DNA of 64,000 nucleotides from positions 1-64,000 of the forward strand of contig CABXOW010000003.1 in assembly GCA_902513955.1 (NCBI GenBank), read 5' to 3'. Numbering within the stretch: position 1 is the first letter of the stretch; every line of letters starts with the position of its first letter. Source of the DNA: an uncultured Pelagibacteraceae bacterium (GTDB lineage: Bacteria; Pseudomonadota; Alphaproteobacteria; Pelagibacterales; Pelagibacteraceae). Below the pieces are notes generated by a model, which ran no database searches, was not told the origin of the DNA, and was given only the letters and a program-made list of their open reading frames with translations. The position numbers and the translations under genes were made by a program. Shown here in pieces: positions 16,104 to 64,000 of this stretch.

Positions 16104-17378
16104 ATGAATAACTTTTTAGATAAAATTTTTTTTAGATCTCATAATCTTGATTATATAAGTCAAAATCTTATTAATTTAACAAATCAAACACCTGCTAACA
16201 GAATTTTTGAAGCACTTAACACTTACTCAGAGAGTAGTGAAGTTAGATATGTTGGGGGCTGTGTAAGAAAAGTTATTAAAAAGCAAATTGTTGATGATAT
16301 TGATTTAGCTACAAATTTAAAACCAAGCGAAGTTTGTGATGCTTTAAAAAAAAAAGAAATTAATTTTTATGAAACTGGTATTGAGCATGGAACTATCACG
16401 GCAATAATTGATAAATATAAATATGAAATTACGTCTTTAAGAAAAGATGTTTCTACAGATGGAAGACATGCAAAAGTAGAATTTTCTTTAGATTGGAAGG
16501 AAGATGCAGCCAGAAGAGATTTTTCCATAAATTCAATATACTCAGACAAAGATGGAAATTTGTTTGACCCACATGATGGTAAAAAAGATCTTGAGAGTGG
16601 AAATATTAATTTTATAGGAGATGCAGAAAGTAGAATTAAAGAAGATTACTTACGTATTCTTAGATATGTGAGGTTTTTTATAAATTATTCAAATCAAAAT
16701 CATGATCCAAAAATAATTAAAATAATTAAAAAAAATATTGGCGGTATTTCAAAGTTATCTTCAGAAAGATTGTTAGATGAATTTAAAAAACTAATAAGAT
16801 CAAATGCATTTTTAAGGATATTTAAAGATAAGATTAGTTTAGAGCTTATAGAAATTATCTTTCCTCAACTAAAAAACTTAGAAAACTTTAAGAAATTAAA
16901 TTCTTATGCTCTTGACAATCTATCTAAGGTCGATTTTATCTTTCTATTGTCACTAATGATAATCGATGGAACCGACAATGCTAATTATTTTATTTATAAA
17001 TTTAATCTCTCTAAAAAAGATCAAAAAAGATTAAAATCAATTGATTTTTTCTACAAAAAAAATGTAAATATAAAAAATTTTACTGAAAAGAATTTTAATA
17101 AGATTTTTTACTATAATGGCAAACAAGCTGTACTTGATATTATTAATTTTAAACTATTTACATCTATCAAAGTTAAAAAAAAATTACTTAAATTAGTAGA
17201 AACTTATAAAGACAAAATTATTCCAACTCTGCCGATAGGCGCTAGCACGCTCATGACCAAGTATAATATTCCTGAGGGAAAGATATTAGGTAATAAGTTA
17301 AAGTTGATAGAGGAAACATGGGTTCAAAATAGTTTCCAAATTTCAGAAAAACAAATTCAAAAAATTATAAAAAGTTAA
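16104..17378 (+). CDS. CCA tRNA nucleotidyltransferase/poly(A) polymerase family
   Basis: [33 protein letters not shown]. Confidence 0.93.
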
Positions 17379-17851
17379 ATATATTTTACGTCTTTTATTT
17401 TAAAATTTTTAACTCCAGCAGGAGTTGAGATTTCCACTAAATCATTTTTATTTTTTCCAATTAAACCTTTCCCTATTGGTGATTGGAAGAAAATTAGTTT
17501 TTGTTTTAGATCAGCTTCGTCTTTCCCAACAATTTTGTAGTTAATTTTTTCACCATTATCTAGGTTCTCTAAAAATACAGTAGAGCCAAAGATTATTTTT
17601 CCATCATTGTTTAATTTTGTGACATCAATGACATTAGCTCTTGCAATAATATCATTTATTTCTGTTATTCTTCCTTCGTTATGAGATTGTTCCTCTTTGG
17701 CAGCGTGATATTCTGCATTTTCTTTAAGATCTCCATGTGATCTTGCCTCTGCAATTGCAGCTACAATTTCAGGTCTTTTTTTTTCTTTTAAAAAAACTAA
17801 TTCTTCTTTTAGTTTATTTAATCCATTTAATGTTATCGGTTCTTTATCCAT
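17375..17851 (-). CDS. greA: Transcription elongation factor GreA
   Basis: [20 protein letters not shown] signature. Confidence 0.96.
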
Positions 17852-17854
17852 TTA

Positions 17855-18682
17855 TTATTTCCATTTAGCAACTGGAGGTAACGACATCAATATACCATCT
17901 ACATTTCCACCAGTTTGTAAGCCAAATTTAGTTCCTCTATCATACAATAAGTTAAATTCAGCGTATCTACCTCTTTTAATATACTGCATCTCTTTATCTT
18001 TTAAAGTCCATTTTTTTTTAATTTTTTTTTCTATAATATTATTAAATATCATTTGAAATGTAACACCAACATCTCTTACAAATTTAAAGTCTTCTTCAAA
18101 GTTATCTTTTTTATAATCAAAAAAAATTCCGCCTATTCCTCTTGCTTCATTTCTATGTGGTAAAAAGAAATATTCATCACACCATTTTTTATATTTTTTA
18201 TAATAATTTTTATTGTGCCGATTACACATTTTTCTTAATGATTGATGAAATGTATTTTTTTCCTTATCATCTTTAATAGCAGGTGTTACATCCATACCAC
18301 CACCAAACCAATTTTGAGTTGTGCAGATATATCTAGTGTTAAAATGCATTGCCGGAATATGAGGATTTTGCATGTGCATTACTATTGAAATGCCAGAGGC
18401 CCAAAATCTTGGATCTTTACTTGCCCCAGGAATATTTTTTTGAAATTTTTTTGGGAATTTTCCATAAACTTTTGAAAAATTTACTCCTACTTTTTCAAAA
18501 ACTTTTCCATTTGTTATAATCCTATATTCACCACCACCCTCATCTTTTTTTTTACTTCTTTGCCATGAGGTTGATTTAAATTTTATTTTATTTTTTTCTA
18601 ATCTACTAATATCATCACAGATTGCATTTTGAAGTAGCTTGAACCAATTACTTGCTAAGTCTTTTTTAATTTCAATATCCAT
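17855..18682 (-). CDS. hemF: Oxygen-dependent coproporphyrinogen III oxidase
   Basis: PHIPAMHFNTRYI, WFGGGMDVTPAI, RGRYAEFNLLYDRGTKFGL. Confidence 0.96.
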   Translation of the reverse strand: MDIEIKKDLASNWFKLLQNAICDDISRLEKNKIKFKSTSWQRSKKKDEGGGEYRIITNGKVFEKVGVNFSKVYGKFPKKFQKNIPGASKDPRFWASGISIVMHMQNPHIPAMHFNTRYICTTQNWFGGGMDVTPAIKDDKEKNTFHQSLRKMCNRHNKNYYKKYKKWCDEYFFLPHRNEARGIGGIFFDYKKDNFEEDFKFVRDVGVTFQMIFNNIIEKKIKKKWTLKDKEMQYIKRGRYAEFNLLYDRGTKFGLQTGGNVDGILMSLPPVAKWK

Positions 18683-57859: not shown

Positions 57860-57899
57860 GGGCCTGTAGCTCAGTTGGTTAGAGCAGTACACTCATAAT
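57860..57899 (+). pseudogene. Orphan 5' half of tRNA-Met (CAT), nucleotides ~1-39
   Basis: GGGCCTGTAGCTCAGTTGGTTAGAGCAGTACACTCATAAT then loss of anticodon-stem complementarity; no T arm follows. Confidence 0.85.
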
Positions 57900-57993: not shown

Positions 57994-58012
57994 TTACCAA
58001 CTATTTACCAAC
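57994..58012 (+). repeat. Two direct TTACCAAC repeats, 11-bp period
   Basis: TTACCAAC at 57994 and 58005. Confidence 0.6.
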
Positions 58013-58019
58013 GAATTAA

Positions 58020-59279
58020 ATGTTGTTAGGGTCATTAATAATTATAATGAGAAATCTTCAGACTTTTACTTTTTTGCTTGTATTTGTTTTCACCAATTTA
58101 GTTGCTGAAGAAAAAAAGATTAAGTTAAGAGGTATTAGTGATAATGAAACATTTAAACCTATACAGATCTCAATTAGCCCAGATTTATTAAATACTGATA
58201 AAGTAAAAGATTTAAAATCTACCTATGAAGCCGCTAAAGAATTTGCAAATAAAACAGACAAACAGTTAAAAAGTAGAAAAGTAAAAAAATTTAGAAGTGC
58301 AAATGCTGGTGATTCACCAAGTAAAATTTATAATGATTACGCAAAAAGTGTATTTTTTCTTTATAATGAAAAAGCTGAAGCAATAGGCACAGGTTTTTTA
58401 GTAGATTCTTCTGGATTAATTCTTTCCAACTGGCACGTGACAGATAAAACTAAAAAAATGTTTGTTTGGACATTACCTGAAGAAGGAGTAATCGATGCAG
58501 ACAGTTTATTTGCTAAAGAATATTACTTTGGTTCAGTTATAGCTGAAAATAAAAAAGAAGATTTAGCTTTAATTAAAGCAATTGGATTACCTAAAAATAT
58601 AAAGCCAGTAAATCTAGGAACAAATGATGAGGTTAATGTTGGTGATAGCGTTTATGCTATTGGTCACCCAAAAGGTTTGCCATGGAGTTTTTCAGCAGGG
58701 ATGGTTAGTCAAAAAAGAAAAAATTATAAATGGACTTATGAAGATAAGTCAGAACACTCTGCAACAGTTTTACAAATGCAAACACCAATAAGTACGGGGA
58801 ATTCAGGGGGGCCATTATTTTCAGGAAAAGGGAAAGTTGTAGGTGTTAACACTTTATTCCAAGGAGATGGGCAAAATTTAAATTTTGCAGTAGCGGTAGA
58901 TCATGTAAAAAAATTTATTAAAGACAATCCAGTTGTCACCAAAATAAATCCTATTGGAGCTATAATCAAACAAGACTACCCTAATGCCATAACGGAGGAT
59001 TATAATAAAAATGGCACAATTGATACTTGGTATGTAGATAAAAATGGTAATGGTAAATTGGATTTAGGATTTGTTGATGACGATGAAAATGGATTTGTGG
59101 AAGGCACACTAATAGACAAAGATGAAGACGGTGTTTGGGAAATCTTTTTAATTGATACTGATGAAAATGGTAAAGCCGATCAAGCTTATTTAGATAATGA
59201 TGCCGATAAAAAACCTGATGTTCTTGCTCATGATTATAATGAAGACGGTGAGTGGGATAAGTTTGAAGAGCTTTCTTAG
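58020..59279 (+). CDS. Exported trypsin-like (S1C) serine protease with C-terminal Ca-binding-like D/N-rich repeats (probable start 58047)
   Basis: Triad motifs SNWHVTD, KKEDLALIK, TGNSGGPLF; C-terminal DYNKNGTID/DKNGNGKLD/DDDENGFVE/DKDEDGVWE/DTDENGKAD/DNDADKKPD/DYNEDGEWD. Confidence 0.88.
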   Translation: MLLGSLIIIMRNLQTFTFLLVFVFTNLVAEEKKIKLRGISDNETFKPIQISISPDLLNTDKVKDLKSTYEAAKEFANKTDKQLKSRKVKKFRSANAGDSPSKIYNDYAKSVFFLYNEKAEAIGTGFLVDSSGLILSNWHVTDKTKKMFVWTLPEEGVIDADSLFAKEYYFGSVIAENKKEDLALIKAIGLPKNIKPVNLGTNDEVNVGDSVYAIGHPKGLPWSFSAGMVSQKRKNYKWTYEDKSEHSATVLQMQTPISTGNSGGPLFSGKGKVVGVNTLFQGDGQNLNFAVAVDHVKKFIKDNPVVTKINPIGAIIKQDYPNAITEDYNKNGTIDTWYVDKNGNGKLDLGFVDDDENGFVEGTLIDKDEDGVWEIFLIDTDENGKADQAYLDNDADKKPDVLAHDYNEDGEWDKFEELS

Positions 59280-61444
59280 GATTTAGGAAAAAATAAAAAT
59301 TCTCCACCATCGTGACCTGTTCCATGAATTAAAGAGTGCTCTGGTGTTTGATCTGCATTGTTTTCTACATAATTTCTAACTTCTTGAAATAATTCAATAG
59401 ACCTAATAACTTTATTATTATCTCTAAGCGATTTAATTAGAGGTTCTGCAAAAACTGAATTTTTTGAATTTCCTATTCCATCCACAACTTGTTCATTGCC
59501 ACCTGATGTCATTACTAGTCTAGTCTTTTTTTGTTGGTATCTTTTAATTGAAGTTGCAGTTATTTTTTCAACTGATTTATTTTCACCACTTCCTCTCATT
59601 AAAGAACCTGAGAAACAACTATCAACAATTAATAAAATATGTTTTGCATCTGAGGATCCTATCAAATCTTTGATACTGTTATTGCTTAACCATTTAGAAT
59701 CTTGCGTTGAGCCTGCATCTGTTGGTAACCAATATCCTCTTTTTTGTTTTTTGATTAGTTGTCCATGTCCCGCATAATAAATAAGAATATTGTCACTTTT
59801 TTTTCTTTTTTGTGTGAAATTTATTATTGCATTATGGGTGTCATCTTTATTTTTATCGATCATTAAAGTAGTTTCAAAACCATACTTATCTTTTAAAACT
59901 TTTTCTAAATCCTTAGCATCATTAACTGCATTGTCTAAATCCTCTAATTTTTCATAATCATTATTTCCAATTATTAATGCATAATATTTTTCTTCAGTTG
60001 TATGTTTTGCTAGTGTAGTTTTGCCTTCAGCTTCACCCCCATCTTCCCATAAACCATCGTATATATCACCATTAGCATAAACCATTTTTCCTTGCCCATG
60101 TCTGTATCCATCTTTAAATTGGCCTCTATAAATTCTTCCATCAGCATATTCAGCTGAACCTTGTCCATTTTCATCTCCATCTTTAAATTCACCAATATAT
60201 TTATCACCACTTGAATATATTATTGCTCCTTTTCCGTCTGCAAAATTTTCAATGAAATCTCCCTCATAAACTGTTCCACTTTCATAAATATATTTTCCTT
60301 TTCCTGTTCGAAACCCTAATTCAAAATCACCTTCATATTTATCACCATCGCTCCAAGTAAAAAAACCATAACCGTGTTCTAAACCATCTTTATACGGTCC
60401 AATATATTTATTACCATTTGCGTAATGATATTCACCTTTATGAAAAGTATTATTTTTCCATTGACCAGTATATTTTTCTCCATCAGACCAAGTAAAAACT
60501 CCATACCCAGATTTATTTCCATCTAGGAAGTTTCCAATATATTTGTTACCTGTTTCAGATGTGTAGGTACCTTTGCCATCAAATTCACCATTTTGATATT
60601 GTCCCTCATGTTTTTCTCCATCTATATAATAAGTAGTCCCTTTACCAGATAACTTTCCATCTACAAAATCACCTTCATATCTATCTCCATTTACCCATGT
60701 AAAAGTTCCTTTTCCCGTTCTTATTCCATTTACAAAATCACCTACATATTTATTACCACCACTGTATAGATAAGTCCCTTTGCCATTCAATTCATCATTT
60801 ATAAAATTACCAAATTCTATACTGCCATTATTCCATTCAATTCTACCCTTACCATTTAAATCTCCATCTTTGAATGAACCAATATATTTAGTGCCATTTG
60901 CAAAAATTATTTTGCCTTCTCCATTAAGAATATCTTTTTTATATGTTCCTTCAGAATAATACCCACCTTCACAAGTTACTTTTCCTTCACCATGTAAATC
61001 ATGATCTTTAAAAGTTCCTTCTCTTTTACAACCATTAGCTGAGAGATACGTACCTTTACCATTCAGATAATCATTTTTAACTTCACCCTCAAAATATCCG
61101 CCACTTTCAAAAAAATCTTGTCGACCATATCCATCAGCTTTATTATCTTTAAAACCTCCAAAATATATATCTCCCCAAGCTTCTCTAAGAATTCCTTGAC
61201 CATCAAATGCACCATTTTTCCATTCCCCTTTATATTCAATTCTTGGAAATTTATATTCACCGTAACAATTATTCCATTTTCTATAATCAGTTCCTTTGCA
61301 ATTAGAAAGTGAGCTTTCGATTTTATATTTTTCTGGAATTTCAGAGGTGGCTTTAAAACTTAAAATAAAAATAAGAATAACTAGTGCTGAATACTTAATT
61401 ATTTTTGAGTAATTATTTTGATAAGTTGATAGTTGAAATTTCAT
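59276..61444 (-). CDS. Exported 18-MORN-repeat protein with C-terminal caspase (peptidase C14) domain
   Basis: YxGxxxxGxxxGxG repeats; ALIIGNNDYEKLEDLDNAVNDAKDL, ILIYYAGHGQL (His) and LLIVDSCFSGSL (Cys). Confidence 0.9.
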   Translation of the reverse strand: MKFQLSTYQNNYSKIIKYSALVILIFILSFKATSEIPEKYKIESSLSNCKGTDYRKWNNCYGEYKFPRIEYKGEWKNGAFDGQGILREAWGDIYFGGFKDNKADGYGRQDFFESGGYFEGEVKNDYLNGKGTYLSANGCKREGTFKDHDLHGEGKVTCEGGYYSEGTYKKDILNGEGKIIFANGTKYIGSFKDGDLNGKGRIEWNNGSIEFGNFINDELNGKGTYLYSGGNKYVGDFVNGIRTGKGTFTWVNGDRYEGDFVDGKLSGKGTTYYIDGEKHEGQYQNGEFDGKGTYTSETGNKYIGNFLDGNKSGYGVFTWSDGEKYTGQWKNNTFHKGEYHYANGNKYIGPYKDGLEHGYGFFTWSDGDKYEGDFELGFRTGKGKYIYESGTVYEGDFIENFADGKGAIIYSSGDKYIGEFKDGDENGQGSAEYADGRIYRGQFKDGYRHGQGKMVYANGDIYDGLWEDGGEAEGKTTLAKHTTEEKYYALIIGNNDYEKLEDLDNAVNDAKDLEKVLKDKYGFETTLMIDKNKDDTHNAIINFTQKRKKSDNILIYYAGHGQLIKKQKRGYWLPTDAGSTQDSKWLSNNSIKDLIGSSDAKHILLIVDSCFSGSLMRGSGENKSVEKITATSIKRYQQKKTRLVMTSGGNEQVVDGIGNSKNSVFAEPLIKSLRDNNKVIRSIELFQEVRNYVENNADQTPEHSLIHGTGHDGGEFLFFPKS

Positions 61445-62168
61445 AGTTATTATTTATTTTACATAAGTCCAAGGAAACATCAGTTCCTTGATCATTGCTA
61501 GATAATTTTAAAGGTTCATTGAATTTAACTTTTTTACAGTCATTTCCATTAGCGTTAAAATTTTCAACCAATATAAATCTTACTTTTTTACCATCATTAT
61601 CCTCAAGTGAAGATTCAAACTCATCATTTAAATTCATATTATCAATTTTAGAATTAATATCGTTTAGAAACTGCTCTTCATCAAAGTATCTATAAAGATT
61701 TGTTACTCTTGTAGATAAATCTTCATCTGTATTTGGCATACCTCTTAGCTTAAGTTCTTTTGGTGTATCAATTTTTTGTGTCGCCATCATTACAGTTTTT
61801 TTATTATCACCATCAAGTGAGGCAACAAATGTATTTGTATAAAATCCTCCAACAAAAAACATTGCAAACGCTGCAGCAACACCTGCATATTGAATTTTAA
61901 ATAATCCAAAAAAGTTAAAAGAACCTGTTTCTTTAGCTAAAGGTTTCTTCCAGCTTTTAATAATATTAGCTTTATCTTGTAAGTTTTGAGGTAGCGGTTT
62001 TGATTTAATTTCATTACCTAATTTAAATAATAGGTCCCCAGTTTCTTGAAAATTATTATATAATTCTTTGAGTTTTGGATCAGCCTCTATAGCTTTTTTA
62101 ACTTCTTCATGCTCTTCGATGGGTAAAGTACCATCTGCGTATTGCATTATTTTAGTTTCATCTATCAT
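61413..62168 (-). CDS. Membrane-anchored anti-sigma factor-like protein
   Basis: Cytoplasmic N-terminus MQYADGTLPIEEHEEVKKAIEADPKLKELYNNF; single TM YAGVAAAFAMFFVGGFYT; overlaps the sigma stop codon. Confidence 0.75.
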   Translation of the reverse strand: MIDETKIMQYADGTLPIEEHEEVKKAIEADPKLKELYNNFQETGDLLFKLGNEIKSKPLPQNLQDKANIIKSWKKPLAKETGSFNFFGLFKIQYAGVAAAFAMFFVGGFYTNTFVASLDGDNKKTVMMATQKIDTPKELKLRGMPNTDEDLSTRVTNLYRYFDEEQFLNDINSKIDNMNLNDEFESSLEDNDGKKVRFILVENFNANGNDCKKVKFNEPLKLSSNDQGTDVSLDLCKINNNYEISTINLSK

Positions 62169-62656
62169 TATGCAAGCAATCCTTTTAATTCTTTTCTACA
62201 ATTTGATAATCTACTTAAAACAGTTCCTAAACTCTTAACTTGAGTTACTTCTTGCATTTCTTGCATACTCATACCTTCCGAAGCTAGCATTAAAACCTCT
62301 TGGCATTTTTCACCCATAGTTTTAATAACAGATAGAACTTTGCTACATTCATCACTCAAACTAATTTTATCTGAAATATCAGCTTGTTTTTCATCTACAA
62401 TTTGTAAATCATTTCCCTCATCATCTGTCATAGAAGTCATTTTTTGATTTTTTCTAATTCCATCAATAAATAGACCTTTCATTTTTAATACAGCTATTGC
62501 TTTTATATTTGGATGATCCATATACTTTTCTTTATTAGAAATTAAATATTCCATAGCACCATTCACTAAATCGTAAGGGTCGCCTTTGCCCCTCATTATT
62601 CCCAGTGCTATCACTACTAAGCTTTTGATAAAATTCTCGTCCAATTTCTCTGTCAT
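62168..62656 (-). CDS. ECF-type RNA polymerase sigma factor
   Basis: Region 2-like DPYDLVNGAMEYLISNKEKYMDHPNIKAIAVLKMKGLFIDGIRKNQK; region 4-like CQEVLMLASEGMSMQEMQEVTQVKSLGTVLSRLSNCRKEL. Confidence 0.78.
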   Translation of the reverse strand: MTEKLDENFIKSLVVIALGIMRGKGDPYDLVNGAMEYLISNKEKYMDHPNIKAIAVLKMKGLFIDGIRKNQKMTSMTDDEGNDLQIVDEKQADISDKISLSDECSKVLSVIKTMGEKCQEVLMLASEGMSMQEMQEVTQVKSLGTVLSRLSNCRKELKGLLA

Positions 62657-62723
62657 ATCTTAAGTCTTTAACTATATCTAAAGTATCAAACTTAAAACAA
62701 TTATAGTGTTTATTCAAATCCAT

Positions 62724-62921
62724 TTATATCCATTTAGAGTTAGGTGTTTGCCCACATCTGTAAGTGGGATTAGTAAAACTATTAATTAATTGTAATTCTT
62801 TATGATTATTGCAATCATCAAAAGTATAACCAGGAAGATCACTAGCAGCATTTGCTCGACCAGCTACTCCAATTACTTTTAGAATAATTAGAATAGCTAT
62901 TATCATAAACTGAGGTTTCAT
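62724..62921 (-). CDS. 65-aa secreted small protein
   Basis: Signal peptide MKPQFMIIAILIILKVIGVAGRANA; start overlaps the stop of the upstream gene by 1 nt. Confidence 0.6.
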   Translation of the reverse strand: MKPQFMIIAILIILKVIGVAGRANAASDLPGYTFDDCNNHKELQLINSFTNPTYRCGQTPNSKWI

Positions 62922-63061
62922 TAAAAATTTTCCCCTAAAAATGCTTTATCAATATAAAAATTATAACCAATCAATTCATTTGCAACCATATTCCATTCAC
63001 TAGCTTGTGATGTACTTGAAAGAACTGAAAGTAATCCAATAATTAAAAATATTTTTTTCAT
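62921..63061 (-). CDS. 46-aa secreted small protein
   Basis: Manual ORF MKKIFLIIGLLSVLSSTSQASEWNMVANELIGYNFYIDKAFLGENF*. Confidence 0.6.
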   Translation of the reverse strand: MKKIFLIIGLLSVLSSTSQASEWNMVANELIGYNFYIDKAFLGENF

Positions 63062-63072
63062 GTTTATCCTTA

Positions 63073-63282
63073 TTATTTAGAGTTAGAGTTAAGTAACGCA
63101 CTTCCAATTAAACCAAAAACGATTGGTGAGAATCTAGAAGCAGAACCTAAAAATGGAGTTAAGTTATAACCTGCAAAAGATGCTGCAAAATCAATAACTG
63201 CAAAACCAATCATTAATCCACCTAAGATTTGTACTACTGTTGTTTTTTCTTCTTCTTGTCTTATTACTATTGCTTTTTTCAT
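63073..63282 (-). CDS. 69-aa membrane protein (start corrected to MKKAIVI)
   Basis: SD AAAGGAAAC before ATG 63282; the longer ORF start at 63318 lies in the 5' UTR repeat. Confidence 0.6.
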   Translation of the reverse strand: MKKAIVIRQEEEKTTVVQILGGLMIGFAVIDFAASFAGYNLTPFLGSASRFSPIVFGLIGSALLNSNSK

Positions 63283-63355
63283 TTTGTTTCCTTTTGTTAG
63301 TTGTTTCTTTGTGTTCATATTTAGTTAACGTTTGAAGTCAGATTTTATTCAAAAA
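63268..63355. repeat. 88-bp duplicated promoter/5'UTR unit, copy 1
   Basis: 86/88 identical to 63562..63649. Confidence 0.9.
63326..63351 (-). promoter_or_regulatory. ECF-like promoter copy 1: TGAATAA-N14-CGTTA
   Basis: Minus strand TGAATAAAATCTGACTTCAAACGTTA. Confidence 0.6.
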
Positions 63356-63399: not shown

Positions 63400-63576
63400 T
63401 TAACAGCCACTGAAATTATTGTAGCAAACACCATCCGGGTTAGTTCTGTAGTGAGAACCCACATAAGTACCATTGCTTTTGAAATATCCATTAACTAGCA
63501 CTAGAGCGTTAGCTGCAGTGTTTAAATTAAGACCGATTACTGAAATTAGACTGATCATCATTATTGCTTTTTTCAT
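63400..63576 (-). CDS. 58-aa secreted peptide
   Basis: MKKAIMMISLISVIGLNLNTAANALVLVNGYFKSNGTYVGSHYRTNPDGVCYNNFSGC; SD AAAGGAAAC. Confidence 0.65.
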   Translation of the reverse strand: MKKAIMMISLISVIGLNLNTAANALVLVNGYFKSNGTYVGSHYRTNPDGVCYNNFSGC

Positions 63577-63649
63577 TTTGTTTCCTTTTGTTAGTTGTTT
63601 CTTTGTGTTCATATTTAACTAACGTTTGAAGTCAGATTTTATTCAAAAA
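63562..63649. repeat. 88-bp duplicated promoter/5'UTR unit, copy 2
   Basis: 86/88 identical to 63268..63355. Confidence 0.9.
63620..63645 (-). promoter_or_regulatory. ECF-like promoter copy 2: TGAATAA-N14-CGTTA
   Basis: Minus strand TGAATAAAATCTGACTTCAAACGTTA. Confidence 0.6.
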
Positions 63650-63709: not shown

Positions 63710-63925
63710 TTATTTCTCATAATCCCATTTGCCAGTAAATGGATTGTACTCAAGCTTCGAGTCTGATCTCTCATGAGACCAATCTCCATCAAAAGGATTG
63801 TACTTCAAGCTAGAGTCTCTTGGAGCACTTTCCCACTGACCAGTAAAAGGATTATATTTGATATCTGCCATAGTTATATTAGGCAGGAGAACAAATAATG
63901 CGATTATGATAGTTTTTACTTTCAT
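63710..63925 (-). CDS. 71-aa secreted protein built of three YNPFxGxW repeats
   Basis: Signal peptide, then IKYNPFTGQWESA / LKYNPFDGDWSHE / LEYNPFTGKWDYE; SD AGGAGG. Confidence 0.75.
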   Translation of the reverse strand: MKVKTIIIALFVLLPNITMADIKYNPFTGQWESAPRDSSLKYNPFDGDWSHERSDSKLEYNPFTGKWDYEK

Positions 63926-63942
63926 AATACCTCCTGAAATAT

Positions 63943-63968
63943 TAACGTTTTGATGTTAGGATTATTCA
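63943..63968 (-). promoter_or_regulatory. ECF-like promoter copy 3: TGAATAA-N14-CGTTA, diverged spacer
   Basis: Minus strand TGAATAATCCTAACATCAAAACGTTA. Confidence 0.6.
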
Positions 63969-64000
63969 AATAATAATTATTTTAAGGAAATAGATTTTAA

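Follow-up and report, generated by a model that had tools for sequence, protein, structure and literature searches.

Why would a streamlined, free-living ocean bacterium export caspases and keep their genes beside that of a sigma factor? The question is raised by a 64,000-nucleotide stretch of DNA (hereafter the window, whose positions we use as coordinates) from an uncultured member of the Pelagibacteraceae, positions 1 to 64,000 of contig CABXOW010000003.1 in assembly GCA_902513955.1. We call the 1.2-Mb source genome G000 and its island-bearing contig C3. Towards the right end of the window, overlapping minus-strand genes for a sigma factor of the extracytoplasmic function (ECF) type, an anti-sigma factor and a protein combining MORN repeats with a C14 caspase domain face a plus-strand gene for a trypsin-like protease. 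A first-pass annotation proposed that these four form an envelope-sensing protease cascade that releases the sigma factor. We find that they are the core of an island of about 9.5 kb inserted at a tRNA-Met gene; its flanking tRNA-Met repeats, a second caspase, a family of predicted promoters and a set of small-protein genes were absent from that annotation. We lean, without great confidence, towards the view that this island encodes a self-contained alarm switch facing the envelope, in which a caspase cascade would free the sigma factor to express the island's own small proteins.

The gene set and its island

All four open reading frames (ORFs) lie where the annotation placed them, and the overlaps are real (sigma/anti-sigma at 62168, anti-sigma/caspase at 61413-61444). 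The proposal was to fall if the first protein proved not to be a sigma factor. Sigma-type NCBIfam profiles predominate among its matches, the best being NF058625 (4e-14 over residues 11-158, below that profile's cut-off), and in the PDB it resembles sigma4 of the ECF factors SigR and SigH (3e-4); no Pfam family matches at E<=1. It is a small protein with sigma2 and sigma4 regions only, as befits the ECF class. Profile matches to the anti-sigma factor are weak (PRK13920, 1e-4; zf-HC2, 0.18). A single hydrophobic segment (residues 89-115 or so) exceeds the hydropathy threshold in five of the seven homologues; in the window copy it falls short. The structure model (mean predicted local distance difference test score, pLDDT, 61.6) has the domain layout expected of an anti-sigma factor; Foldseek gave no significant match for its C-terminal fold. 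The host encodes an M50 site-2 protease (G000:C4:73746-74786, 2.5e-65).

The caspase domain of the MORN protein is a clear C14 match (PF00656, 8.4e-29) with an invariant His/Cys dyad, H560/C610. Pfam recognizes 15 MORN stretches and the structure model contains 17-18 hairpins, in keeping with the earlier count of about 18; this solenoid is modelled confidently and matches solved MORN proteins, and the caspase part is modelled poorly. The trypsin-like protease (Trypsin_2, 1.4e-25) has an intact triad, as annotated: H139, D181 and S262 are invariant in seven homologues, which also conserve the Asp-rich tail. A C14 search of the genome located a second caspase past the window edge, on the plus strand (64004-66418; C14 domain at G000:C3:65714-66355), an 804-residue protein with N-terminal hydrophobic segments. 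Judged by hydropathy and by eye, all the proteases have signal-peptide-like or transmembrane N-termini, that of the MORN-caspase being signal-peptide-like, and they are predicted to be exported.

The island runs from 57860 to contig position 67353. Its two ends bear an exact 40-bp repeat derived from the tRNA's 5' half, the right copy being part of an intact tRNA-Met gene (G000:C3:67353-67429). In these respects it resembles tycheposons and tRNA genomic islands, small elements at a tRNA gene that leave a partial tRNA copy at the distal end and carry variable cargo. It differs in that the duplicated part is the 5' half and that no integrase or tyrosine recombinase was recognized among the island ORFs, the small ones having been profile-scanned in part.

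Does the gene set recur? Close relatives of the sigma factor are rare, occurring in 1/247 genomes of the family (G000 alone) and 4/399 of the genus, G000 included. A scan of genome contigs located six other sigma-bearing Pelagibacteraceae loci (L029-L034) and an incomplete one in a SAR86 bin (L035). The annotation would have been undone had its genes rarely co-occurred; in all seven sigma-bearing SAR11 loci examined (G000 and L029-L034) the four stand in the same order, the trypsin facing MORN-caspase, anti-sigma and sigma. The sigma factor is 74-90% identical to those of the six other islands. The second exported caspase is present in all five of these six loci with enough contig (L030 is too short), with a pair of them in L032. 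G000, L031, L032 and L034 show tRNA-Met repeats on both sides and L030 the left one; the L033 island lies elsewhere, and the L029 contig contains no tRNA fragment. Between L031 and L034, dnaG is 58% identical, the anti-sigma factor 90% and the trypsin 87%. Because these island distances conflict with the host distances, the island appears to travel between lineages by horizontal transfer.

The insertion site has other occupants. Of 198 SAR11-family genomes, nine, not counting G000, contain a pair of tRNA-Met copies separated by 2-20 kb, and the TACCAAC ends are common to their elements. Six of the nine carry cargo of the restriction-modification type: methyltransferase, nuclease or GHKL/Z1 proteins are profile-confirmed in L068, L070 and L072-L074, and the L069 methyltransferases were assigned by near-identity to those of L068. 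Another, L071, encodes a pair of exported CHAT proteases together with an exported trypsin, a PrsW protease and a peptide homologous to the 61-residue one of the island. Two genomes have empty sites (L077 and L078). Cargo of these kinds favours a conflict role for the island, without proving it.

Carriage by phages or plasmids was considered and set aside. Single-protein queries found no sigma or MORN-caspase relatives in IMG/VR, a MORN profile gave three remote matches only, no plasmid matched, and among phage records a single unannotated one of 4.9 kb gave a match, a remote one. A motif screen found no caspase partner beside 80 trypsin relatives on viral contigs.

An island-confined family of predicted promoters

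What would the sigma factor transcribe? The motif TTGAATA-N15-CGTT has eight exact matches in the 1.2-Mb genome, six of them within the island. When 250 genomes were searched for TTTGAATAA-N9-TCAAACGTNA with at most one mismatch, matches appeared in G000 and G596 only, five in each, and both carry the sigma factor; a control motif mis-spaced by one base gave two scattered matches and none in G000. Across eight loci, islands contain 31 sites and 59 kb of flanking sequence contains none. For 30 of the 31, an ORF of 33-95 codons begins 7-24 nt downstream; one of these ORFs, on the SAR86-bin contig, is uncertain. The GAAT-N16-CGTT layout resembles that of ECF promoters. Common to the sigma operon and the regulon, the TTGAAT-N16-CGT family behaves as a cognate promoter should, and its recognition by the island's sigma factor is predicted from this distribution. 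The genes behind these promoters nearly all encode tiny exported or membrane proteins, about eight of which are likely the output of the island switch. Since the first gene of the sigma operon in G000 has a predicted promoter of its own, feedback is implied.

An A/C-rich leader (ATGAACACAAA..AAAGGAAACAAAATG) containing two in-frame ATGs is common to many of the small genes, both in the window (63280-63318) and in other islands.

Candidate cleavage sites and the proposed switch

How might the sigma factor be released? The trypsin carries K-x-R-[GS] on either side of its pro-segment, and the anti-sigma factor has the same motif in its juxtamembrane linker (Table 1), where K140 and R142 are invariant (7/7) in an otherwise variable stretch with pLDDT<50. 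All island caspases have L-[MT]-R-[GS] after the catalytic cysteine. Fully conserved K-x-R-[GS] motifs number three in 676 columns of anti-sigma and trypsin versus one in 1,400 housekeeping columns (dnaG, mlaC, rpoD). Of the seven SAR11 loci that pair a caspase with a trypsin and lack the sigma factor (L097-L103), four show a variant. Their trypsins have K-x-K-G at both sites in L098, L099 and L101 and at the second site only in L097, and the caspase loops of these four also contain Lys ('GGKFKG' in L099 and L101, 'LLKGS' in L097, 'ATKGK' in L098); the Arg-to-Lys swap is concordant between trypsin sites and caspase loop in these four pairs.

With the proteases and the C-terminus of the anti-sigma factor predicted to reach the same side, a site-2 protease in the host and a regulon found on the island only, a proteolytic switch is the most economical explanation. 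Gene content and order, the limits of the island, its movement between hosts, the promoter family with its confinement to sigma carriers, the conserved motifs and the predicted export can be read from the sequences; we infer the trigger of the switch, its cleavages and their order, and the use of its output as follows. At rest, an inner-membrane anti-sigma factor would hold the sigma factor. An envelope event, perhaps attack by a phage or competitor, would activate both exported caspases, the MORN-caspase and the second one, with their variable N-terminal regions probably acting as sensors. The caspase would cut itself after the Arg of the loop that follows its cysteine, and would cut the trypsin pro-segment at the two K-x-R-[G/S] sites. 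Alone or through the activated trypsin, it would then cut the anti-sigma linker at K-x-R-[G/S], and host RseP and cytoplasmic proteases would complete the destruction of the anti-sigma factor. The freed sigma factor would transcribe from the island's TTGAAT-N16-CGT promoters the genes of five to eight very small proteins that are exported or lie in the membrane. Sigma, anti-sigma and MORN-caspase would also be transcribed, a positive feedback given by operon structure. The switch of protease, anti-sigma and sigma that the annotation envisaged is partly supported, by the island-confined regulon and the shared basic motifs; cutting of the anti-sigma factor by a protease and sensing of damage by the MORN repeats are conjectural.

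Several points weigh against this proposal. The K-x-R-[GS] motif was picked after the fact; three sites in 670 aa correspond to p~0.01 against the host frequency, and the one conserved housekeeping copy falls in dnaG. The first trypsin site of L097 does not fit the Arg/Lys concordance, and the trypsins of L100, L102 and L103 lack K-x-[RK]-[GS] altogether. As the seven islands are one lineage, the concordance may stem from a single divergence. We treat the cleavage-site code as a hypothesis because it was noticed on inspection, in loci that are few and related, and three divergent pairs lack the motif. The trypsin could cut basic sites by itself, and the MORN repeats are no more than a plausible sensor. 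Finally, feedback may not occur in every island: G420 has no exact motif directly before its sigma operon, a terminator-like stretch and a further gene lying in between.

A wider reading, which we advance tentatively, would make the module an extracytoplasmic, mobile zymogen cascade with a logic like that of complement or coagulation. A MORN-sensing caspase would activate the trypsin zymogen and, since the K-x-R-[G/S] sites match, cut the anti-sigma factor too; once free, the sigma factor would flood the envelope with tiny island-encoded proteins in an immune-type response. Sister SAR11 modules would employ this same pairing of caspase and trypsin with K-x-K-G sites, ion-channel-like or PrsW partners replacing sigma.

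Alternatively, the trypsin may be the site-1 protease, sensing the signal and cutting the anti-sigma factor as DegS does RseA, with the caspases as downstream effectors or separate defence proteases. Trypsin-like enzymes cleave after Arg or Lys, this one is HtrA-like in sequence (TIGR02037, 2.5e-31), and a trypsin gene is present at all seven sigma-less C14 loci and one CHAT locus, which makes it a core part. But the Pfam scan found no PDZ domain in it, DegS equivalog profiles fall far below cut-off, and the caspase loop has the same motif class, its Lys matching the trypsin Lys, which indicates the caspase; mutual processing is possible. We consider this alternative unlikely.

It is likewise improbable that the locus is a regulated antagonism or toxin island, in which the sigma factor switches on tiny peptides, secreted or membrane-active, that the proteases mature and that either kill or exclude neighbouring cells or kill the infected cell itself. 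The regulon does consist almost wholly of tiny exported or membrane proteins, among them hydrophobic ones of 33 and 81 residues, and homologues of the 81- and 61-residue proteins occur in other loci with an exported caspase or CHAT protease and a trypsin. Yet the small proteins match no Pfam family significantly and show no common K-x-R-[GS] site, no immunity gene was recognized in the island, and such peptides could be the output of the caspase-driven switch rather than an alternative to it. Least probable is a non-immune, sigmaE-like regulon for envelope stress or surface remodelling that merely rides on a mobile island: in its sigma/anti-sigma layout and its small secreted products the island is reminiscent of envelope responses, and the trypsin has a calcium-binding-like Asp-rich tail, but the island has no chaperone or outer-membrane assembly gene, its promoter reaches no host genes at the stringency used, and it sits in a hotspot that is otherwise occupied mainly by restriction-modification cargo.

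Table 1. Features of the island inside the window (aa, amino acids)
Feature	Position	Strand	Basis or remark
Left 40-bp direct repeat, tRNA-Met(CAT) 5' half, island left end	57860..57899	+	identical to 5' 40 nt of G000:C3:67353-67429
TACCAAC pair, 11-nt step, left island end	57995..58012	+	matching pair at right end; motif also in other tRNA-Met elements
Predicted exported trypsin-like serine protease, pro-segment of about 50 aa, C-terminal Asp-rich calcium-binding-like repeat tail	58020..59279	+	Pfam Trypsin_2/Trypsin
Predicted cleavage site 1, K35-L-R-G, directly after trypsin signal peptide	58122..58133	+	K-x-R-[GS] in 7/7
Predicted cleavage site 2, K90-F-R-S, just before protease domain	58287..58298	+	K-x-R-[GS] in 7/7
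Predicted exported MORN and C14 caspase protein, 722 aa (H560, C610)	59276..61444	-	Pfam, alignment, structure model
Predicted autoprocessing loop, L615-M-R-G, disordered, after catalytic Cys	59591..59602	-	loop pLDDT<50
Putative anti-sigma factor with a helical domain at the N-terminus and an alpha/beta domain (2 Cys) at the C-terminus, joined by one hydrophobic segment and a disordered linker	61413..62168	-	
Predicted cleavage site, K140-L-R-G, anti-sigma juxtamembrane linker	61740..61751	-	
ECF-type sigma factor, 162 aa	62168..62656	-	NCBIfam and PDB profile matches
Exported small protein, 65 aa (..NPTYRCGQTPNSKWI), sigma operon	62724..62921	-	
Exported small protein, 46 aa, sigma operon	62921..63061	-	
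Small membrane protein, 81 aa, first gene of sigma operon	63073..63318	-	homologues also in sigma-less caspase-trypsin loci
Predicted ECF promoter (TTGAATAAAATCTGACTTCAAACGTT) of sigma/anti-sigma/caspase operon	63327..63352	-	
Exported small protein, 70 aa (GYFKSNGTYVGSHYRTNPDG)	63400..63612	-	
Predicted ECF promoter	63621..63646	-	
Exported small protein, 71 aa, three YNPF repeats	63710..63925	-	
Predicted ECF promoter	63944..63969	-	

Known systems and related loci

Is such a switch new? Myxococcus, among others, has operons in which caspase genes occur with sigma factors (PMC3501461), ECF sigma genes lie near EACC2 caspases (PMC8195603), ECF54 sigma factors have been suggested as targets of CHAT and other peptidases (PMC8999054), and MORN-metacaspase architectures are known from Baltic metagenomes (PMC4933709). 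The Csx29/Csx30/CASP-sigma system is an experimentally shown circuit of protease, inhibitor and ECF factor (PMC10028731). The annotation knew of no such arrangement, and text searches of the open-access literature found no description of it; an island combining exported caspase and trypsin with anti-sigma and sigma factors seems to lack prior description. Its novelty must be tempered because caspase-sigma precedents exist (PMC3501461, PMC8195603, PMC10028731).

The closest parallel in logic is Cas7-11/Csx29/Csx30/CASP-sigma, in which a caspase-superfamily protease cuts an inhibitor and relieves an ECF sigma factor with promoters in its own locus (PMC10028731). That system uses an RNA-triggered CHAT protease and CRISPR genes, whereas the island has exported C14 caspases, MORN repeats, a trypsin partner and an anti-sigma factor that looks membrane-bound; no cas-like or CRISPR gene was recognized among its ORFs. 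With DegS-RseA-sigmaE of E. coli it shares a trypsin-fold protease, predicted to be periplasmic, an ECF sigma factor and an available host RseP, and its putative anti-sigma factor may likewise be single-pass; but its protease has no PDZ domain, its anti-sigma factor matches no RseA profile, it includes caspases and its regulon does not extend beyond a mobile island. EACC1 and EACC2 conflict systems likewise join a constant caspase to variable sensor regions and trypsin partners (PMC7159879, PMC8195603), with ECF sigma genes in some EACC2 neighbourhoods. The island proteins differ in being exported, in having no NTPase and in their host, a streamlined unicellular bacterium, and the island caspase scores 86 bits against the cut-off of 140 for the EACC1-associated NF047832. 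Myxococcus-type metacaspase operons also unite a caspase gene and a sigma factor; that report gives the operon association, and anti-sigma factor, promoters and island are not described there (PMC3501461).

SAR11 bacteria are among the most abundant in the ocean. If our proposal is true, caspase-type signalling would extend to the envelope of a free-living unicell, by way of a caspase module that moves horizontally and regulates itself, and the island would offer a regulon, a promoter code and a candidate cleavage-site code for probing what bacterial caspases do.

Two sigma copies deserve mention. Region 4 of the L034 factor (L034:10001-10486) looks recombined, its sequence departing from that of the other six, and the L034 promoters retain the same -35. 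The SAR86-binned contig, 3.4 kb long, encodes a sigma factor 59% identical (L035:2921-3458) with one matching promoter, reflecting either gammaproteobacterial transfer or a binning error. In the window, a short ORF in another frame overlaps the sigma start (62540-62724, minus strand) and is open in G000 and G420.

The notion that SAR11 caspases always accompany the sigma factor was dropped on account of the seven sigma-less caspase-trypsin genomes; a second C14 survey added no loci. At the tRNA-Met site, a 2.4-kb element (L075:1637-3724) has as its sole large gene one for a 695-residue protein with weak leucine-rich repeat matches and a relative in L069. Close to NAD-kinase-like and cinA/sfsA-like genes (identified by eye) lies another insertion region, which holds both the L033 sigma-type island (L033:452-1222 and 17132-18593) and sigma-less caspase-trypsin modules (L098:12573-13340; L099:11441-13501). 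Proteins resembling pentameric ligand-gated ion channels were tried as caspase substrates and rejected, having no consistent K-x-K-G site. Their genes (L097:8643-10040, L098:9034-10500, L099:8960-10441, L071:11226-12788) adjoin those of exported caspases or CHAT proteases and trypsins, often with PrsW and a conserved protein of about 155 residues. They match Neur_chan_memb (about 1e-6 in L097 and L098, 1.5e-4 in L071) and, in L097, the ligand-binding domain (3e-4), and may form a caspase-trypsin-channel module.

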